A DNA stretch of 12,217 nucleotides from an uncultured Alphaproteobacteria bacterium (GTDB lineage: Bacteria; Pseudomonadota; Alphaproteobacteria; GCA-2731375): NCBI GenBank assembly GCA_913049615.1, contig CAJWZI010000022.1, positions 1 through 12,217 of the forward strand, read 5' to 3'. Below the pieces are notes generated by a model. That model searched no databases, had not been told where the DNA came from, and saw only the letters and a program-made list of their open reading frames with translations. Within the stretch, counting starts at the first letter, position 1. The number at the start of each line of letters is the position of its first letter. Positions 1,682-9,400 of the stretch are shown here, in pieces. Both the position numbers and the translations under genes were made by a program.

Positions 1682-2641
1682 TTATGACGCGCTGCAGGAA
1701 CCACCCCCCAATACACAAAAGCGAGCGCAATGGGGATGGTTCAGCGACACAGGAGATTTGGACGCAGCCAGAGTTGGCCCCATTTTAAATCGCTCGTCAT
1801 AGGGCAACAACGTGCAAGGCATTACGGTCAGGCCCTGATCGTCTTTATGCTTGGCTACCATGCGCGATGTCGCGCACATCATAGCGTCGGGCGAAACATT
1901 CAGAATTTCCCAGCAGGCACTAGTTATTTCGGGAACATCTAAACTCTCATCCATCTCGGGGAATAAGACCAACTCAGCGGGATTGTCAGAGTTTACAGGA
2001 ATGGCGTGAGTTTTAAAGAAATTCGCATATCCCTGACGCAAACGGGTCTCGTCCTCGCCCGAAAGAGTGCGGCCCGCGATCGTGATGTTAAAACTGTTTT
2101 CGACCAGCCAAACCAGGCCTTCCATCATCCGGCGCCAAGCATGTTCGCCCCGCTCCAGTTCATGCACTTTAGGTGCGTAGTGATCCACCGAGACCCGCAG
2201 ACAGAGCTGATCGCCATAGCGCCACCGCAATGATAATAGTTCATCGGACAATTTCATCATTGGACGCATAGCGTTAGTCAAAATCAAAGCCCGATAGCCG
2301 CGGGCCAATGTATCGCCCACCATATTCAAGATTTCCGGATTCATAAAAGGTTCGCCACCGGTAAATCCAACCTCGCGCGCCTGCCAATCTGCCTGTAGTT
2401 CATCCAGCGTGCCCGCCACTTCAGCGGCAGTTAGATAGGACAATCGATCATTTGTAGGGCTTGATTCGATGTAACAGTTGCTGCAGGACAAATTGCACAA
2501 AGTACCAGTATTAAACCATAAGGTTTCCAACCGGTTCAGAGTTACGACGGCCCGAGACTCGCCATCCAATGTCCACTTGGGATCATTGAATTTTCTCTCA
2601 ACCAGGGCGTTCGAATGTTTCTCCGTTACGGCACTAGTCAT
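1682..2641 (-). CDS. radical SAM protein with C-terminal cysteine cluster, substrate unknown
   Basis: Radical SAM enzymes bind a [4Fe-4S] cluster through CxxxCxxC and cleave S-adenosylmethionine to a 5'-deoxyadenosyl radical. The motif is at Cys49, Cys53 and Cys56 (CNLSCSNC). The SAM-binding 'GGE' is present as FTGGEPF at 93-99, and LILTNA (119-124) and LRVSVDHY (148-155) fit later strands of the partial TIM barrel. Beyond the barrel there are further cysteines at 243, 256, 276, 305, 309 and 316. The last three (CARFCVLGGGSC) could ligate an auxiliary cluster, as in SPASM/twitch-type enzymes, but the arrangement is not a textbook SPASM. The protein has 319 residues. It is the first gene of the minus-strand run and is transcribed away from the tRNA. 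I do not recognise a named subfamily. No small precursor peptide, which would suggest RiPP maturation, is visible next to it. Confidence 0.88.
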   Translation of the reverse strand: MTSAVTEKHSNALVERKFNDPKWTLDGESRAVVTLNRLETLWFNTGTLCNLSCSNCYIESSPTNDRLSYLTAAEVAGTLDELQADWQAREVGFTGGEPFMNPEILNMVGDTLARGYRALILTNAMRPMMKLSDELLSLRWRYGDQLCLRVSVDHYAPKVHELERGEHAWRRMMEGLVWLVENSFNITIAGRTLSGEDETRLRQGYANFFKTHAIPVNSDNPAELVLFPEMDESLDVPEITSACWEILNVSPDAMMCATSRMVAKHKDDQGLTVMPCTLLPYDERFKMGPTLAASKSPVSLNHPHCARFCVLGGGSCSAS

Positions 2642-2769: not shown

Positions 2770-2843
2770 GCGGGCGTAGCTCAATGGTAGAGCAGGAGCT
2801 TCCCAAGCTTAAGACGAGAGTTCGATTCTCTTCGCCCGCTCCA
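2770..2843 (+). tRNA. tRNA-Gly (anticodon CCC)
   Basis: A full cloverleaf can be folded by eye. The acceptor stem GCGGGCG (2770-2776) pairs with CGCCCGC (2833-2839). The D arm is GCTC...GAGC with an AATGGTA loop. The anticodon stem GGAGC/GCTTA holds the loop TTCCCAA, giving anticodon CCC, which reads GGG. Its outermost pair is a G-A mismatch and the next is G-T. The variable loop is 4 nt, and the T arm GAGAG-TTCGATT-CTCTT contains the TTCGA signature. The discriminator T and a genome-encoded CCA end the gene. It closely resembles bacterial tRNA-Gly(CCC) sequences. The dehydrogenase start codon follows only 24 nt later with no terminator in between, so the tRNA is probably processed out of a longer transcript. 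Confidence 0.95.
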
Positions 2844-4322: not shown

Positions 4323-5360
4323 ATGATGTCACCACGAATTGATCTTTACAGCGACACCCACACAAAACCTACCCTCAAAATGCGTCAGGCGATGATGGAG
4401 GCGGAGGTCGGCGATGAACAACAATTCGAAGATCCAACTGTCAACAAATTGTGCGAGATGGTGGCAGCGTTGTTGGGGCAGGAAGCGGCTGTTTTCCTAC
4501 CCTCAGGGACCATGTGCAACCAGATTGCCTTCCGGGTGCATTGCCAGGCCGGCGACGAGATTATCCTGGATTACACGGCCCATCCCATAAATGCCGAGAG
4601 CGGTGGCCCATCGGCCTTAGCTGGAGCTCAGACACGAGCACTGCATACCAAATTGGGCATCTTCACCGCCGACCAGGTCCGGGAGGCTATCCGCCCGATC
4701 CGCCGGCACCTGCCCGTTAGTCGCGTGATCTCGATCGAGAACACCACCAACGCCGGTGGCGGCTCTGTCTGGCCCATCGAAGAAATCATTAGCGTCACAC
4801 AGGCAGCTAAGGAAAATGGTTTGTCGGCGCACATGGACGGTGCGAGGTTGATGAACGCAGTAGTAGAATCCGGCATCTCGGCAACGGAGTATGGTCGTAA
4901 TTTTGATAGCCTGTGGCTGGATTTATCCAAAGGGTTGGGTTGTCCAATTGGCGGTGTCTTAGCGGGCAGCACGGACTTCATCGAAAAGGCCTGGCGGTTC
5001 AAGCAGCAAATAGGGGGGGCCATGCGTCAGGCCGGCATCGTCGCAGCGGCGGGCATCTATGCACTAGAAAATCATGTGGATCGCCTAGCGGTGGATCATG
5101 AAAATGCTCGTGCATTTTGCAGGGAAATCGCTCAAATTCCCGGCATCAAGCTGATTTTTGATCATTGCCCGACAAATTTGGTGTTTTTTGACGTATCGGA
5201 AACGGGTATGGACGCAGCAACAGTGGCGGAAAAATTACTGGCCCATGACGTGCGAATTGGCGCCATGGGTCCCTACCGTATGCGGGCTGTCACCCATCTG
5301 GATATAAACTGGGAACAATTGTCCGAAGCGGCCGAAGCATTACGAAAGGTAGTCGCCTAG
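4323..5360 (+). CDS. threonine aldolase-type PLP enzyme (beta-eliminating lyase family)
   Basis: Fold-type I PLP enzyme of the low-specificity threonine aldolase family, which splits beta-hydroxy amino acids such as threonine or phenylserine into glycine and an aldehyde in the cytoplasm. The 345-residue length is normal. The N-terminal IDLYSDTHTKPT (6-17), VGDEQQFEDPTVNKL (29-43) and LPSGTMCNQIA (59-69) match the family. His87 in TAHPINAE is the usual active-site histidine. HMDGARLMNA (170-179) carries the PLP-contacting Asp and Arg, and Lys203 in DLSKGLGCPIGG is the Schiff-base lysine. ATG codons at 4323 and 4326 are both possible starts. The gene lies 14 nt after the MaoC-like gene. Its TAG stop shares the tetranucleotide CTAG with the stop of the convergent selW-like gene. 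L versus D or allo preference, and the aldehyde released, cannot be told from sequence. Confidence 0.9.
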   Translation: MMSPRIDLYSDTHTKPTLKMRQAMMEAEVGDEQQFEDPTVNKLCEMVAALLGQEAAVFLPSGTMCNQIAFRVHCQAGDEIILDYTAHPINAESGGPSALAGAQTRALHTKLGIFTADQVREAIRPIRRHLPVSRVISIENTTNAGGGSVWPIEEIISVTQAAKENGLSAHMDGARLMNAVVESGISATEYGRNFDSLWLDLSKGLGCPIGGVLAGSTDFIEKAWRFKQQIGGAMRQAGIVAAAGIYALENHVDRLAVDHENARAFCREIAQIPGIKLIFDHCPTNLVFFDVSETGMDAATVAEKLLAHDVRIGAMGPYRMRAVTHLDINWEQLSEAAEALRKVVA

Positions 5361-5569
5361 GTCAATTCGTCCAGTTCCACGTCGGTAGGAAAGCGGCCCA
5401 TCGCCTTTTTCGAATAAGCCAACCGGCCATCCACCGTTATTTCAAACTTACCACCATCAGAGGCGGTCAACGTCACTTCCGCGCCATGTTTCTCGGCGAT
5501 CCGGTCCCTCGCACGGAGGGCATTAGGTTCGTAGTTTCACTGCATGCAATATTCAATATTGATTTTCAT
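5357..5569 (-). CDS. selW: SelW-like (SelT/SelW/SelH, Rdx family) selenoprotein with in-frame UGA as selenocysteine
   Basis: Small thioredoxin-like redox protein, 70 residues if the in-frame TGA at 5537-5539 is read as selenocysteine. The translation starts MKINIEYCMQ, then U at residue 11, then NYEPNALRARD. This gives the family's CxxU redox motif (Cys8, Sec11) at the end of the first beta strand, followed by the conserved Arg-Ala pair (19-20). The second half, GGKFEITVDGRLAYSKK then GRFP (58-61), is the SelW signature. The true stop is TAG at 5357-5359. An AAGGA Shine-Dalgarno site precedes the ATG by 6 nt, and a SECIS-like hairpin lies just after the TGA. No ATG follows the TGA until codon 57, so routine gene callers would miss the gene or call it broken. 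It sits 11 nt downstream of the TerB/J-domain gene, probably in one operon. The alternative is a pseudogene with a nonsense mutation, but the exact position of the TGA and the intact remainder argue against that. The bacterial cellular role is unknown. Confidence 0.87.
5497..5531 (-). promoter_or_regulatory. candidate bacterial SECIS element in the selW-like mRNA
   Basis: Reading the minus strand, a perfect 5-bp stem CCCTC/GAGGG (5516-5520 with 5506-5510) closes a 5-nt loop CGTGC. The loop begins after 21 nt counted from the UGA, within the 16-37 nt range known for bacterial SECIS elements, and has G at its second position, as the bacterial consensus expects. A lower stem can form between CGAACC (5526-5531) and GGATCG (5497-5502), with one A-A mismatch, separated from the upper stem by an internal loop. 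Such an element would recruit SelB carrying Sec-tRNA to the UGA. The structure was folded by eye and no energy was calculated. Confidence 0.65.
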
Positions 5570-5575
5570 AATAGA

Positions 5576-5580
5576 TCCTT
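5576..5580 (-). promoter_or_regulatory. ribosome binding site of the selW-like gene
   Basis: Minus-strand AAGGA stands 6 nt before the ATG at 5567-5569 and directly after the TAG stop of the TerB/J-domain gene. A good site here supports translation from the ATG upstream of the in-frame TGA. Confidence 0.75.
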
Positions 5581-6306
5581 CTAGCCAAAACCACGCTGAC
5601 GACTGATGCGGTCGTAGGCATCGTTGATAGTAGCCAGTTTTTCCGTTGCCAGATCAATAAATTCTTGCGGCAATCCGCGCGCCATAGCTCGGTCAGGGTG
5701 ATTTTCCCGGATCAACGCCCGCCAAGTCCGCTTGATTTCCTCTTCGCTGGCATTTGGTTCTATACCCAAAATCGTATAGGGATCTGCCAGATCAGGTCCC
5801 AGATGATAAGCTCGTATACGGGAAAAACTTGCCTCGTTAAAACCAAATATTTCGGCTACCTTTTTCAAATAACCCAATTCTGCAGGGTGGATTACTTGAT
5901 CTGCTTTGGCGATGTGGAACAAACCATGCAGCAGATCCTCCAGAGTTTGCGTGGCTGGTTCGAATAAATTGGCGATCTGCGATGCATAGGCTTCGTAACC
6001 CGCTACATCCTTGCGGGCCTGGTTGAAAACACGTGAAACGTCCTTCATGTCCTCAGGAGGGACCTTAAATATCTGTTTGAATGCCTCCACCTCGTCTCGA
6101 GTAACCTGACCATCCGCCTTGGCCATCTTGGCACCGAGAGCAATCACGCCGATCGTGAAGGCAATCTGCTGGGTCCCGTCGGCATCGTCATTGGTGATTT
6201 GGCGAAAAGAATTCGCAGCCTGACTTGCAATGCCACCTAGTAGCGCCCCTAATGGGCCACCCAAGGCATCGCCGACACCACGTACTAATCTGCTCCAAAT
6301 GCTCAT
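5581..6306 (-). CDS. TerB-like and J-domain (DjlA-like) co-chaperone
   Basis: A 241-residue protein with two recognisable parts. Residues about 45-165 form a TerB-like all-helical domain, including GAKMAKADGQVTRDEVEAF (58-76) and a second acidic repeat, HIAKADQVIHPAEL (131-144). Residues about 175-240 are a J domain: DPYTILGIEPNASEEEIKRT, then the essential HPD at 203-205 in RENHPDR. J domains stimulate the ATPase of DnaK-type chaperones, and the TerB plus J layout is that of DjlA. The N-terminus (residues 10-30) is Gly- and Ala-rich with GxxxG-like spacing (LGGPLGALLGG), possibly a weak membrane-associating helix in place of the usual DjlA anchor. The gene heads a two-gene minus-strand unit with the selW-like gene 11 nt downstream, and is divergent from the hydantoinase gene. 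The Shine-Dalgarno site is poor. The client protein is unknown. Confidence 0.87.
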   Translation of the reverse strand: MSIWSRLVRGVGDALGGPLGALLGGIASQAANSFRQITNDDADGTQQIAFTIGVIALGAKMAKADGQVTRDEVEAFKQIFKVPPEDMKDVSRVFNQARKDVAGYEAYASQIANLFEPATQTLEDLLHGLFHIAKADQVIHPAELGYLKKVAEIFGFNEASFSRIRAYHLGPDLADPYTILGIEPNASEEEIKRTWRALIRENHPDRAMARGLPQEFIDLATEKLATINDAYDRISRQRGFG

Positions 6307-6445
6307 ACTGCAATTTTTCAGATTATTTTCTTCATGCGCGCACGGCTAGCCTTATGCCGACGGAAGGAAATTGGCAAGGGAAGGTTGCTTGAGCAATTTT
6401 TCATCAATAAAACATTTGTAATTTAACATATTGAGGCTCGAAGAG
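6307..6445. promoter_or_regulatory. divergent intergenic region with a short inverted repeat
   Basis: This AT-rich gap lies between the divergent TerB/J-domain and hydantoinase genes and must carry promoters for both. A 12-nt inverted repeat TTGCT-TG-AGCAA is at 6385-6396. Towards the minus strand, TTGCCA (about 6369-6374) resembles a -35 box, but the best -10 (CATAAG) is only 15 nt away. No promoter is called with confidence. The repeat could be an operator half-site pair or chance. Confidence 0.3.
6433..6436 (+). promoter_or_regulatory. ribosome binding site of the hydantoinase/oxoprolinase gene
   Basis: GAGG lies 9 nt before the ATG at 6446. It overlaps an in-frame TTG at 6431 that could otherwise be taken as the start, and so favours the ATG. 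Confidence 0.6.
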
Positions 6446-9400
6446 ATGCCTGAAAAATGGAATTTCTGGATCGACCGTGGTGGCACTTTTACGGATATCG
6501 TCGCCCGCCGGCCCGATGCCGGTTATCTAAGTCATAAACTTCTGTCGGAGAATCCGGAGCAATACCCCGACGCAGCACTCCAGGGAATTCGTGACCTTTT
6601 AGGCGTGGACAAATCCGATCCCATCCCAACGGACCGCATCGCGTCCGTAAAAATGGGCACCACCGTGGGGACCAATGCCCTCCTGGAACGCAAGGGTGAC
6701 CGCACACTGCTAGTTACCAATAAAGGTTTCCGCGATGCCTTGCGTATCGGCTATCAGAATCGTCCACGCTTATTCGACCTGAACGTTCAATTGCCAGAGA
6801 TGCTGTACGAGCGGGTGATCGAGATTTCGGGACGTTACACGGCACAGGGCGAGGAAAGAATCCCAATCGACCTTGAAGAGGCCCGTGCTGGCCTGCAGGC
6901 AGCTTACGATCACGGCATTCGGTCGTGCGCCATCGTTTTCATTCACGGATATCGTTACACGACCCATGAAAAAGCCGTAGCTGAGATTGCATCAGACATC
7001 GGCTTCACACAGGTATCGACTTCGCACGATGTTAGTCCTCTGATGAAAATGGTTGGGCGCGGCGATACAACGGTTGTCGACGCCTATCTGTCACCAATTC
7101 TGCGCCGCTACGTGGACCAGGTCGCATCGGAGTTGGGCGATGCACAGTTGATGTTCATGCAATCCAACGGCGGCCTGACTGACGCCAGTCTGTTCCAAGG
7201 TAAGGATTGCATCCTGTCGGGACCGGCGGGCGGTGTGGTCGGCGCGGTACGCACGACGGCCATGGCGAATTTCGAGAAGATTATCGGCTTCGATATGGGC
7301 GGTACATCCACCGATGTCTCACACTATGCGGGCCACTTCGAACGAGCATTCGAAAGTGAAGTCGCAGGTGTCCGAATGCGGGCACCCATGATGCACATCC
7401 ACACTGTGGCCGCAGGCGGCGGCTCTATCCTACATTTCGACGGCGCCCGATTCACCGTGGGTCCGGATTCCGCCGGCGCCAATCCTGGTCCAGCCTGTTA
7501 TCGCCGCGGCGGGCCCTTAACGGTTACGGACTGTAATCTCATGTTAAACAAGCTAAACCCCGATTTCTTCCCCATGGTCTTTGGCCCCAAAGGTGACGAA
7601 CCGTTGAACCATGCCGTGGTGGTGGAAAAATTCAAAGACCTAGCAGACCAAATCACGGCAGCTGGTGGCGATCTGATGGCACCCGAAGCCGTCGCCGAAG
7701 GTTATTTAACAATTGCCGTTGAAAATATGGCCAATGCCATCAAGAAGATTTCAATTCAGCGGGGCTATGATGTTTCCGAATATGTCCTGAGTTCTTTTGG
7801 CGGCGCCGGCGGTCAACATGCCTGCCTGGTGGCTGACGCGCTCGGCATGAAGCAGGTGTTTTTGCATCCTTTGGCTGGCGTTCTCTCGGCCTATGGCATG
7901 GGATTAGCAGACGTGCGTGCCATGCGGGAGCAGGCAGTTGAGTCCATTTTGGATGATAAGCTGATAGTAGAATTGGAAGTCAGTCTGAACAAATTAGCGG
8001 CGATAGGTTTGGCAGAGTTAAAGAGCCAGGACATCGCAGATGACAGAATTTCGGTATTGCGCAAGGTACATATTCGCTATCAAGGCACAGATACAGCCCT
8101 GATGGTAAATTTCGGTAGCAAGGACGGCATCGTCCAGGCCTTCGAGGAGAAGCACCAACAGCAATTCGGTTTCATCGACCACACTAAGACGCATGTAGTC
8201 GAGGCCATATCCATTGAAGCCATTGGCGCAGGGGAACCAGTGGTGGACCTGCCATTAGATTCGACGTGCTGCGGACGGGTAGATACCATCCCGCCCTTGG
8301 CATTGGTCCAGGCCTATATGGGCGGTGAATATCGCAACACACCAGTGATCGACCGCAACCACTTACACCCGGGCGATACGATCACCGGCCCGGCCATCCT
8401 GCGCGAGGATACCGCCACTACTGTGATTGAGCCGGGCTGGCGAGGTGAGCTGACGGAGGTAGGACACTTCATCTTGACACGGATTCAGGCTCTGCCCAGA
8501 CGCACGGCCGTGGGGACGGAAGCCGATCCAATCATGCTGGAGATCTTCAACAACCTGTTCATGTCCATTGCCGAACAAATGGGTCTGGTCCTGGAAAAGA
8601 CCACCAATTCCGTAAACATCAAGGAGCGCCTCGATTTCTCCTGTGCGGTATTTGACCAGAACGGCGAGTTGATCGCGAATGCACCTCATATGCCTGTGCA
8701 TCTAGGCAGCATGGACGAATCCATTAAGGCAGTGATCCGCGCCCACAGGCAGGCCATGCGGCCCGGCGATGTCTTTGTCTTGAATGCTCCTTATAACGGC
8801 GGCACCCACTTGCCGGATGTCACCGTGATTACGCCGGTATTCGATGACGACAACGCCGGCGATCAGGCCCAGGTTTTGTTCTACGTAGCCTCGCGTGGTC
8901 ATCATGCAGAAATCGGCGGCATTAGCCCCGGTTCCATGCCGCCTTACAGTAAAAATGTCGAAGAAGAGGGTGTCCTGATCGACAATTTAAAGCTGGTGGA
9001 TAAAGGACGATTCTTGGAGCAAGAGATACGGGAAATATTGGCCTCGGGCAGGTATCCCTCTCGAAACCCGGACAGCAATATCGCGGATCTTAAGGCTCAG
9101 ATCGCTGCCTGCGAAAAGGGCGTGCAAGAATTGCGCCGCGTGGTGGAGCATTTTGGTCTGGCCGTGGTCCACGCCTACATGGGTCATGTCCAGGACAATG
9201 CCGAAGAATCCGTACGACGGGTAATCGAAGTGCTAAAATCCGGTTGTTTTGAATGCCCAATGGACGATGGCTCCAAGATCAAGGTGGAGATTTCAATCAA
9301 CCATGAGGAACGATCCGCCAAGATCGATTTCACCGGCACCTCGCCCCAGTTAGAAACCAATTTTAACGCGCCCACCGCCGTCAGCCGGGCGGCGGTCCTT

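Follow-up and report, generated by a model that had tools for sequence, protein, structure and literature searches.

SelW-like selenoproteins of the Rdx family are already well described and are common in marine bacteria. In the Sargasso Sea they were the most abundant selenoprotein family, with 48 genes (PMC1088965), and the GOS survey, which gave 427 sequences with selenocysteine (Sec) and 56 with cysteine, found no family that was generally more abundant in marine samples (PMC2398784). SelW-like CxxU proteins are also listed in reviews (PMC9312934, PMC13188914 and also PMC9402790). The two surveys bear out the remark in the initial annotation of this DNA that such selenoproteins were known before. 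A CxxU pair at the place where it occurs in these proteins is expected to be redox-active (PMC1088965). The marine proteins (PF10262) have about 70 residues and an N-terminal CxxU in the Sec form, and their genes carry a bacterial SECIS element right after the UGA codon. Two other groups of relatives have solved structures. Atu0228 and the PA-, VC- and other bacterial SelW-related proteins (2fa8, 2oka, 2obk, 2p0g) have a CxxC motif and 103-108 aa, while mouse SelW (2npb) is eukaryotic and of a kind with the SECIS element in the 3' UTR (PMC1088965).

The gene described here lies in a 12,217-nt stretch of DNA (the window) and resembles the marine-type genes, from which it differs in nothing essential. 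What is new is the specific clade, the gene order and a hairpin with frozen codons. The gene occupies positions 5357..5569 of the minus strand, with an ATG at 5569-5567, a TAG stop at 5359-5357 and 70 codons before the TAG. A single in-frame UGA, the predicted Sec codon, is codon 11 (5537..5539), and it falls at the U of the motif C8-M-Q-U11, which follows the first strand as expected of an Rdx/SelW-like protein. These coordinates, the motif and the place of the UGA within it are exactly those given by the initial annotation. A sequence resembling a ribosome-binding site, AAGGA (5576..5580, minus strand), was read 6 nt before the ATG. The 3' end of the gene shares a few bases with a convergent threonine-aldolase-like gene, which ends at 5360, and its start is 11 nt away from the stop codon of a TerB/DnaJ gene read in the same direction.

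With Sec replaced by Cys for profile searches, the protein scored 61.1 bits against Pfam Rdx (PF10262) and 50.9 bits against TIGR02174, where the cut-offs are 22.6 and 34.2, as anticipated for the 70-residue Rdx/SelW-type protein that had been proposed to result when the UGA is ignored. The score with the narrower profile NF041051 was 84.2 bits, just below its cut-off of 88. The predicted model (pLDDT 94) has the SelW arrangement, with a strand at residues 2-8 and a helix at 14-28, and superimposes on 2fa8 with a TM score of 0.92, an rmsd of 1.0 and 39% identity, indicating a SelW-type thioredoxin-like fold. The Atu0228-type proteins thus share the predicted fold, but the window protein is shorter and has CxxU in place of CxxC. 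Mouse SelW belongs to the same family by profile (36.7 bits) and has the same fold (TM 0.68 to the model), the SECIS of the window gene being directly past the UGA rather than in a 3' UTR.

The UGA was present at codon 11 in all 24 related loci recovered when genome contigs were scanned with the Cys-substituted protein, a count obtained with six search patterns of which one had Cys at that position; two of the loci, L010 and L021, come from one MAG, and L021 is a fragment. The closest loci (67-84% identity) come from MAGs labelled alphaproteobacterial and Rhodospirillaceae; those labelled Acetobacteraceae, Hyphomicrobiales and Chloroflexi follow, with a small number of other groups. A codon shared by all 24 loci excludes chance coincidence. 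Among 96 relatives of genome G001, 21 genomes were matched, 19 of them with the UGA; the matches in the other two, which have no other family member, are a different, CTQC-containing paralogue of the Atu0228 type. When 278 relatives of genome G012 were searched with the database protein P0104, 54 genomes had a family match, 26 of them in a TGA-containing frame, and each of the 20 loci read from this group had the UGA at codon 11.

Downstream of the UGA (codons 12-69), comparison of the window with loci L001-L010 gave pN values of 0.084-0.214 and pS values of 0.613-0.794, with synonymous sites outside the hairpin codons near saturation. The low pN relative to pS indicates that purifying selection at the protein level continues past the UGA. 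Ordinary gene finders would call the locus a pseudogene, i.e. a Cys-type Rdx gene broken at the UGA by a nonsense mutation or a sequencing error, and Cys homologues do exist: 20 of 138 listed homologues have Cys at the Sec position, so that the UGA is aligned with Cys or Sec in homologues. The recurrence of the codon in independent genomes refutes such an accident, and the constraint beyond it, together with the frozen codons and paired stem changes of the SECIS described below, leaves this explanation with a negligible probability. The strain-specific nonsense mutation with downstream decay that the initial annotation had weighed against itself is contradicted by the same UGA count and pN/pS values.

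The homologue records also show how such genes are misread. Tryptophan is printed at the Sec position in 92 of the 138 listed records (84 assigned by script, 8 sorted by eye), presumably as a result of gene calling with code 4, and taken literally these would mean that UGA is read as tryptophan. In the window, TGA is the normal stop of three of the nine other genes and TGG is present in all nine; the genetic code is therefore unchanged. Cys stands at the position in other homologues and in the solved relatives, and neither the SECIS-like constraint nor the co-occurrence with SelB (below) has a role in tryptophan decoding. A tryptophan codon is thus as exceedingly improbable as a broken gene. 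A further 24 of the 138 records, also sorted by eye, begin after the motif, as if the UGA were a true stop and the real product a short protein of 39-50 aa started beyond it. Codons 1-10 are conserved, however, with C8 and I5 invariant, the start codon and the AAGGA precede the UGA, and the short records would contain neither the first strand nor the catalytic pair, so that a late start is very improbable, if slightly less so than a tryptophan codon. The gene is easily missed by standard annotation, as had been expected. Four database SelW proteins (P0104, P0106, P0113 and P0114) have W at both catalytic positions and would be UxxU proteins if both W stood for TGA. Such a double-Sec variant was unsupported: in the 54 matching genomes of the P0104 search, no row had more than one TGA.

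The predicted upper hairpin of a bacterial SECIS was located at 5506..5520 (minus strand), with the stem CCCUC/GAGGG (5520-5516 paired with 5510-5506) and the loop CGUGC (5515-5511). Numbered from the U of the UGA, bases 20-24 pair with 30-34 and the loop is 25-29. The published model of bacterial SECIS elements (PMC13188914) has a loop of 3-9 nt, a stem of 4-16 bp, a G as the first or second loop base, a spacing of 16-37 nt from the UGA and an MFE of at most -7.5; the window hairpin agrees with it, having a loop of 5, a stem of 5, G as the second loop base, a spacing of 21 and an MFE of -11.2. Folding energy is weak by itself and was rejected as sole evidence for the element, 9 of 200 shuffles and 14% of synonymous variants folding equally well. 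No Rfam match was found around the gene.

Among 15 UGA genes, each of codons 17-21 (GCC CTC CGT GCG AGG) had one spelling wherever the majority residue was kept, which was the case in all 15 genes, or in 14 for codon 20. All five codons are 4- or 6-fold degenerate, yet pS there was 0. By the codon usage of the window, the product of the frequencies for this spelling is 4.9e-5, with CTC and AGG being rare. The majority residue was present in 10 or more of the 15 genes at 31 highly degenerate codons. Seven of these were frozen in this way, namely codons 17-21 and codons 29 and 35, which had that residue in just 10 genes each. For an alignment, 25 sequences with the loop at the window's position were selected from 33 UGA sequences; L011 and L013-L019 (n=8), in which the hairpin is displaced by about a codon, were left out. 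In these 25 sequences the stem was paired in 99.2% of cells, four of the five pairs had changed on both sides, and the loop letters GU were kept throughout (25/25). None of 500 shuffles equalled this pairing, and slid versions of the stem were far worse.

A strict hairpin test was passed by 28 of the 33 UGA sequences, the exceptions being L011, L014, L016, L017 and L022. In an independent later set (L101-L120), a hairpin of at least 5 bp was found in 15 of 20 loci, compared with 2.15 expected from synonymous variants, under a relaxed motif pattern, which found all 20 loci, and a looser loop rule; a longer motif pattern found the motif in six of the 20 loci and the hairpin in two of those six. 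Five loci of the later set failed the test; in four of the 15 that passed, the script reported a different hairpin, the CCCTC-CGTGC-GAGGG letters being present too. L113 and L114 contributed an additional paired change in the stem. In the Acetobacteraceae-type loci L011 and L013-L018, a CGTG-like loop lies one codon closer to the UGA on a different stem, with a mismatch in several, and the loop of L014 is without GU. Overall, the SECIS hairpin of this clade is unusually well supported from sequence alone, since it freezes five degenerate codons and its stem is swapped by paired changes in distant copies.

The machinery for Sec decoding was surveyed in 23 genomes carrying relatives of the SelW-like gene, from which its presence in the window's own organism is presumed. 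Weak tRNA-Sec and SelB matches were ubiquitous in control genomes, and strong matches alone were therefore counted. SelB was above the cut-off in all 23 genomes, SelD in 22 and SelA in 21 (not found in G002 and split in G022). ARAGORN confirmed a tRNA-Sec in 20, the exceptions being G006, G019 and G021. In these three and in G026, apparently mostly draft MAGs, tRNA-Sec was not found among the 117 or 150 candidates scored per genome. Among the 96 relatives of G001, SelB was above the cut-off in 25: in 18 of the 19 genomes with the UGA gene versus 7 of the 77 others (Fisher p 6e-13, kinship ignored). G024 has SelB and tRNA-Sec and gave no SelW match.

G039 has the UGA gene, and neither SelB above the cut-off nor tRNA-Sec was detected in it, as would be the case if the gene were a relict, intact in a host that has lost Sec decoding. 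For the window such a loss is very improbable, though somewhat less so than a late start: in the 11 loci associated with TerB/DnaJ, SelB was above the cut-off in all 11 genomes and tRNA-Sec was present in nine, and the window copy has no decay.

Genomes G001-G009 have an in-frame UGA within SelD itself. In the clade selD genes (L057, L058, L060, L061, L062 and L064) it lies in the motif HGGGUGCK and is followed by a hairpin with the loop letters CGUG, the strict stem rule holding in four of the six loci read. These loop letters are common to the clade selD and SelW-like hairpins, which makes a loop preference of SelB testable. G001-G008, among others, have another SelD match besides this one, in a UGA-free frame of about 750-790 residues that looks like a fusion.

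The gene directly upstream (5581..6306, minus strand), which is probably on the same transcript, encodes a DjlA-like protein with TerB and DnaJ domains (Pfam, 103.4 and 41.5 bits). Both genes occur in 11 loci; it stands immediately before the UGA gene in 10 of these, and in the remaining one, L085, the two are separated by another ORF. No TerB/DnaJ relative was found in the 22 other loci compared, several of which are short or stop close to the gene. The window shares with L002 and L003 (74-84% identity) the order oxoprolinase/hydantoinase, TerB/DnaJ, SelW, threonine aldolase, MaoC, 2-hydroxyacid dehydrogenase, radical SAM and CoA-transferase, and L005 has the same order plus one extra ORF. 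By this shared gene order the window comes from a relative of these alphaproteobacterial MAGs, distinct from the genomes recovered here, and on the best reading from an alphaproteobacterium close to MAGs labelled Rhodospirillaceae. Viral-contig scans yielded no relative, and a phage origin was rejected. Simple promoter and terminator scans of 5200-6500, with promoters checked on either strand, gave no site, and the SelW-like gene is likely to be co-transcribed with TerB/DnaJ.

Several further features of the window and its relatives were noted. A tRNA-Gly (CCC) gene is located at 2770-2843 (plus strand), and the start of the 2-hydroxyacid dehydrogenase must be later than its listed GTG (2751) because the frame from there crosses this tRNA. 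The radical SAM protein (1682-2641, minus strand) has distant named relatives only, the best NCBIfam match being 90.7 bits to an Rv1681-type model with a cut-off of 380; its gene adjoins the SelW locus in several clade members. In the Chloroflexi-type loci L020, L022 and L023, the UGA SelW gene precedes a class I (W/Y) tRNA synthetase (PF00579) by about 30 nt in all three.

Taken together, the locus is best explained as a functional gene that codes for a small SelW-like selenoprotein of the Rdx family and whose UGA is read as Sec, with a probability of roughly 0.97. The gene, the conserved UGA and the hairpin are observed, and Sec insertion is what they point to. The family match, the conserved UGA, the compensatory changes in the SECIS and the Sec machinery of relatives agree with the initial annotation on this central point. 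The mRNA would probably start upstream of TerB/DnaJ and be translated from the ATG at 5569, and the hairpin 21 nt downstream of the UGA is expected to recruit SelB carrying Sec-tRNA-Sec, so that codon 11 would be decoded as Sec. Sec-tRNA-Sec would be made by SelA and SelD, found in the lineage and presumed for the window's own genome from its relatives. The product is predicted to adopt a thioredoxin-like fold in which the CxxU redox pair sits where the first strand meets the helix, and would most likely be a small thiol/selenol oxidoreductase.

The gene order suggests a functional link between the SelW-like protein and TerB/DnaJ. In the most specific form of this idea, the TerB/DnaJ co-chaperone would have the selenoprotein as its dedicated redox partner, and the two would act together at the membrane as a redox-chaperone pair that depends on selenium. 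This proposal comes from the adjacency in 10 of 11 clade loci and the failure to find a TerB/DnaJ relative in the other 22, and we consider it speculative and unlikely; by title, none of the 10 papers listed among 57 literature matches links SelW with TerB/DnaJ.

For the family as a whole, the window gene is one more correct and usually unannotated Sec gene, and it illustrates the damage done to the family in databases, of which the W and late-start counts given above are a measure. The conserved TerB/DnaJ neighbour may be the first lead to the function of these proteins, which a recent review (PMC13188914) still calls unknown.
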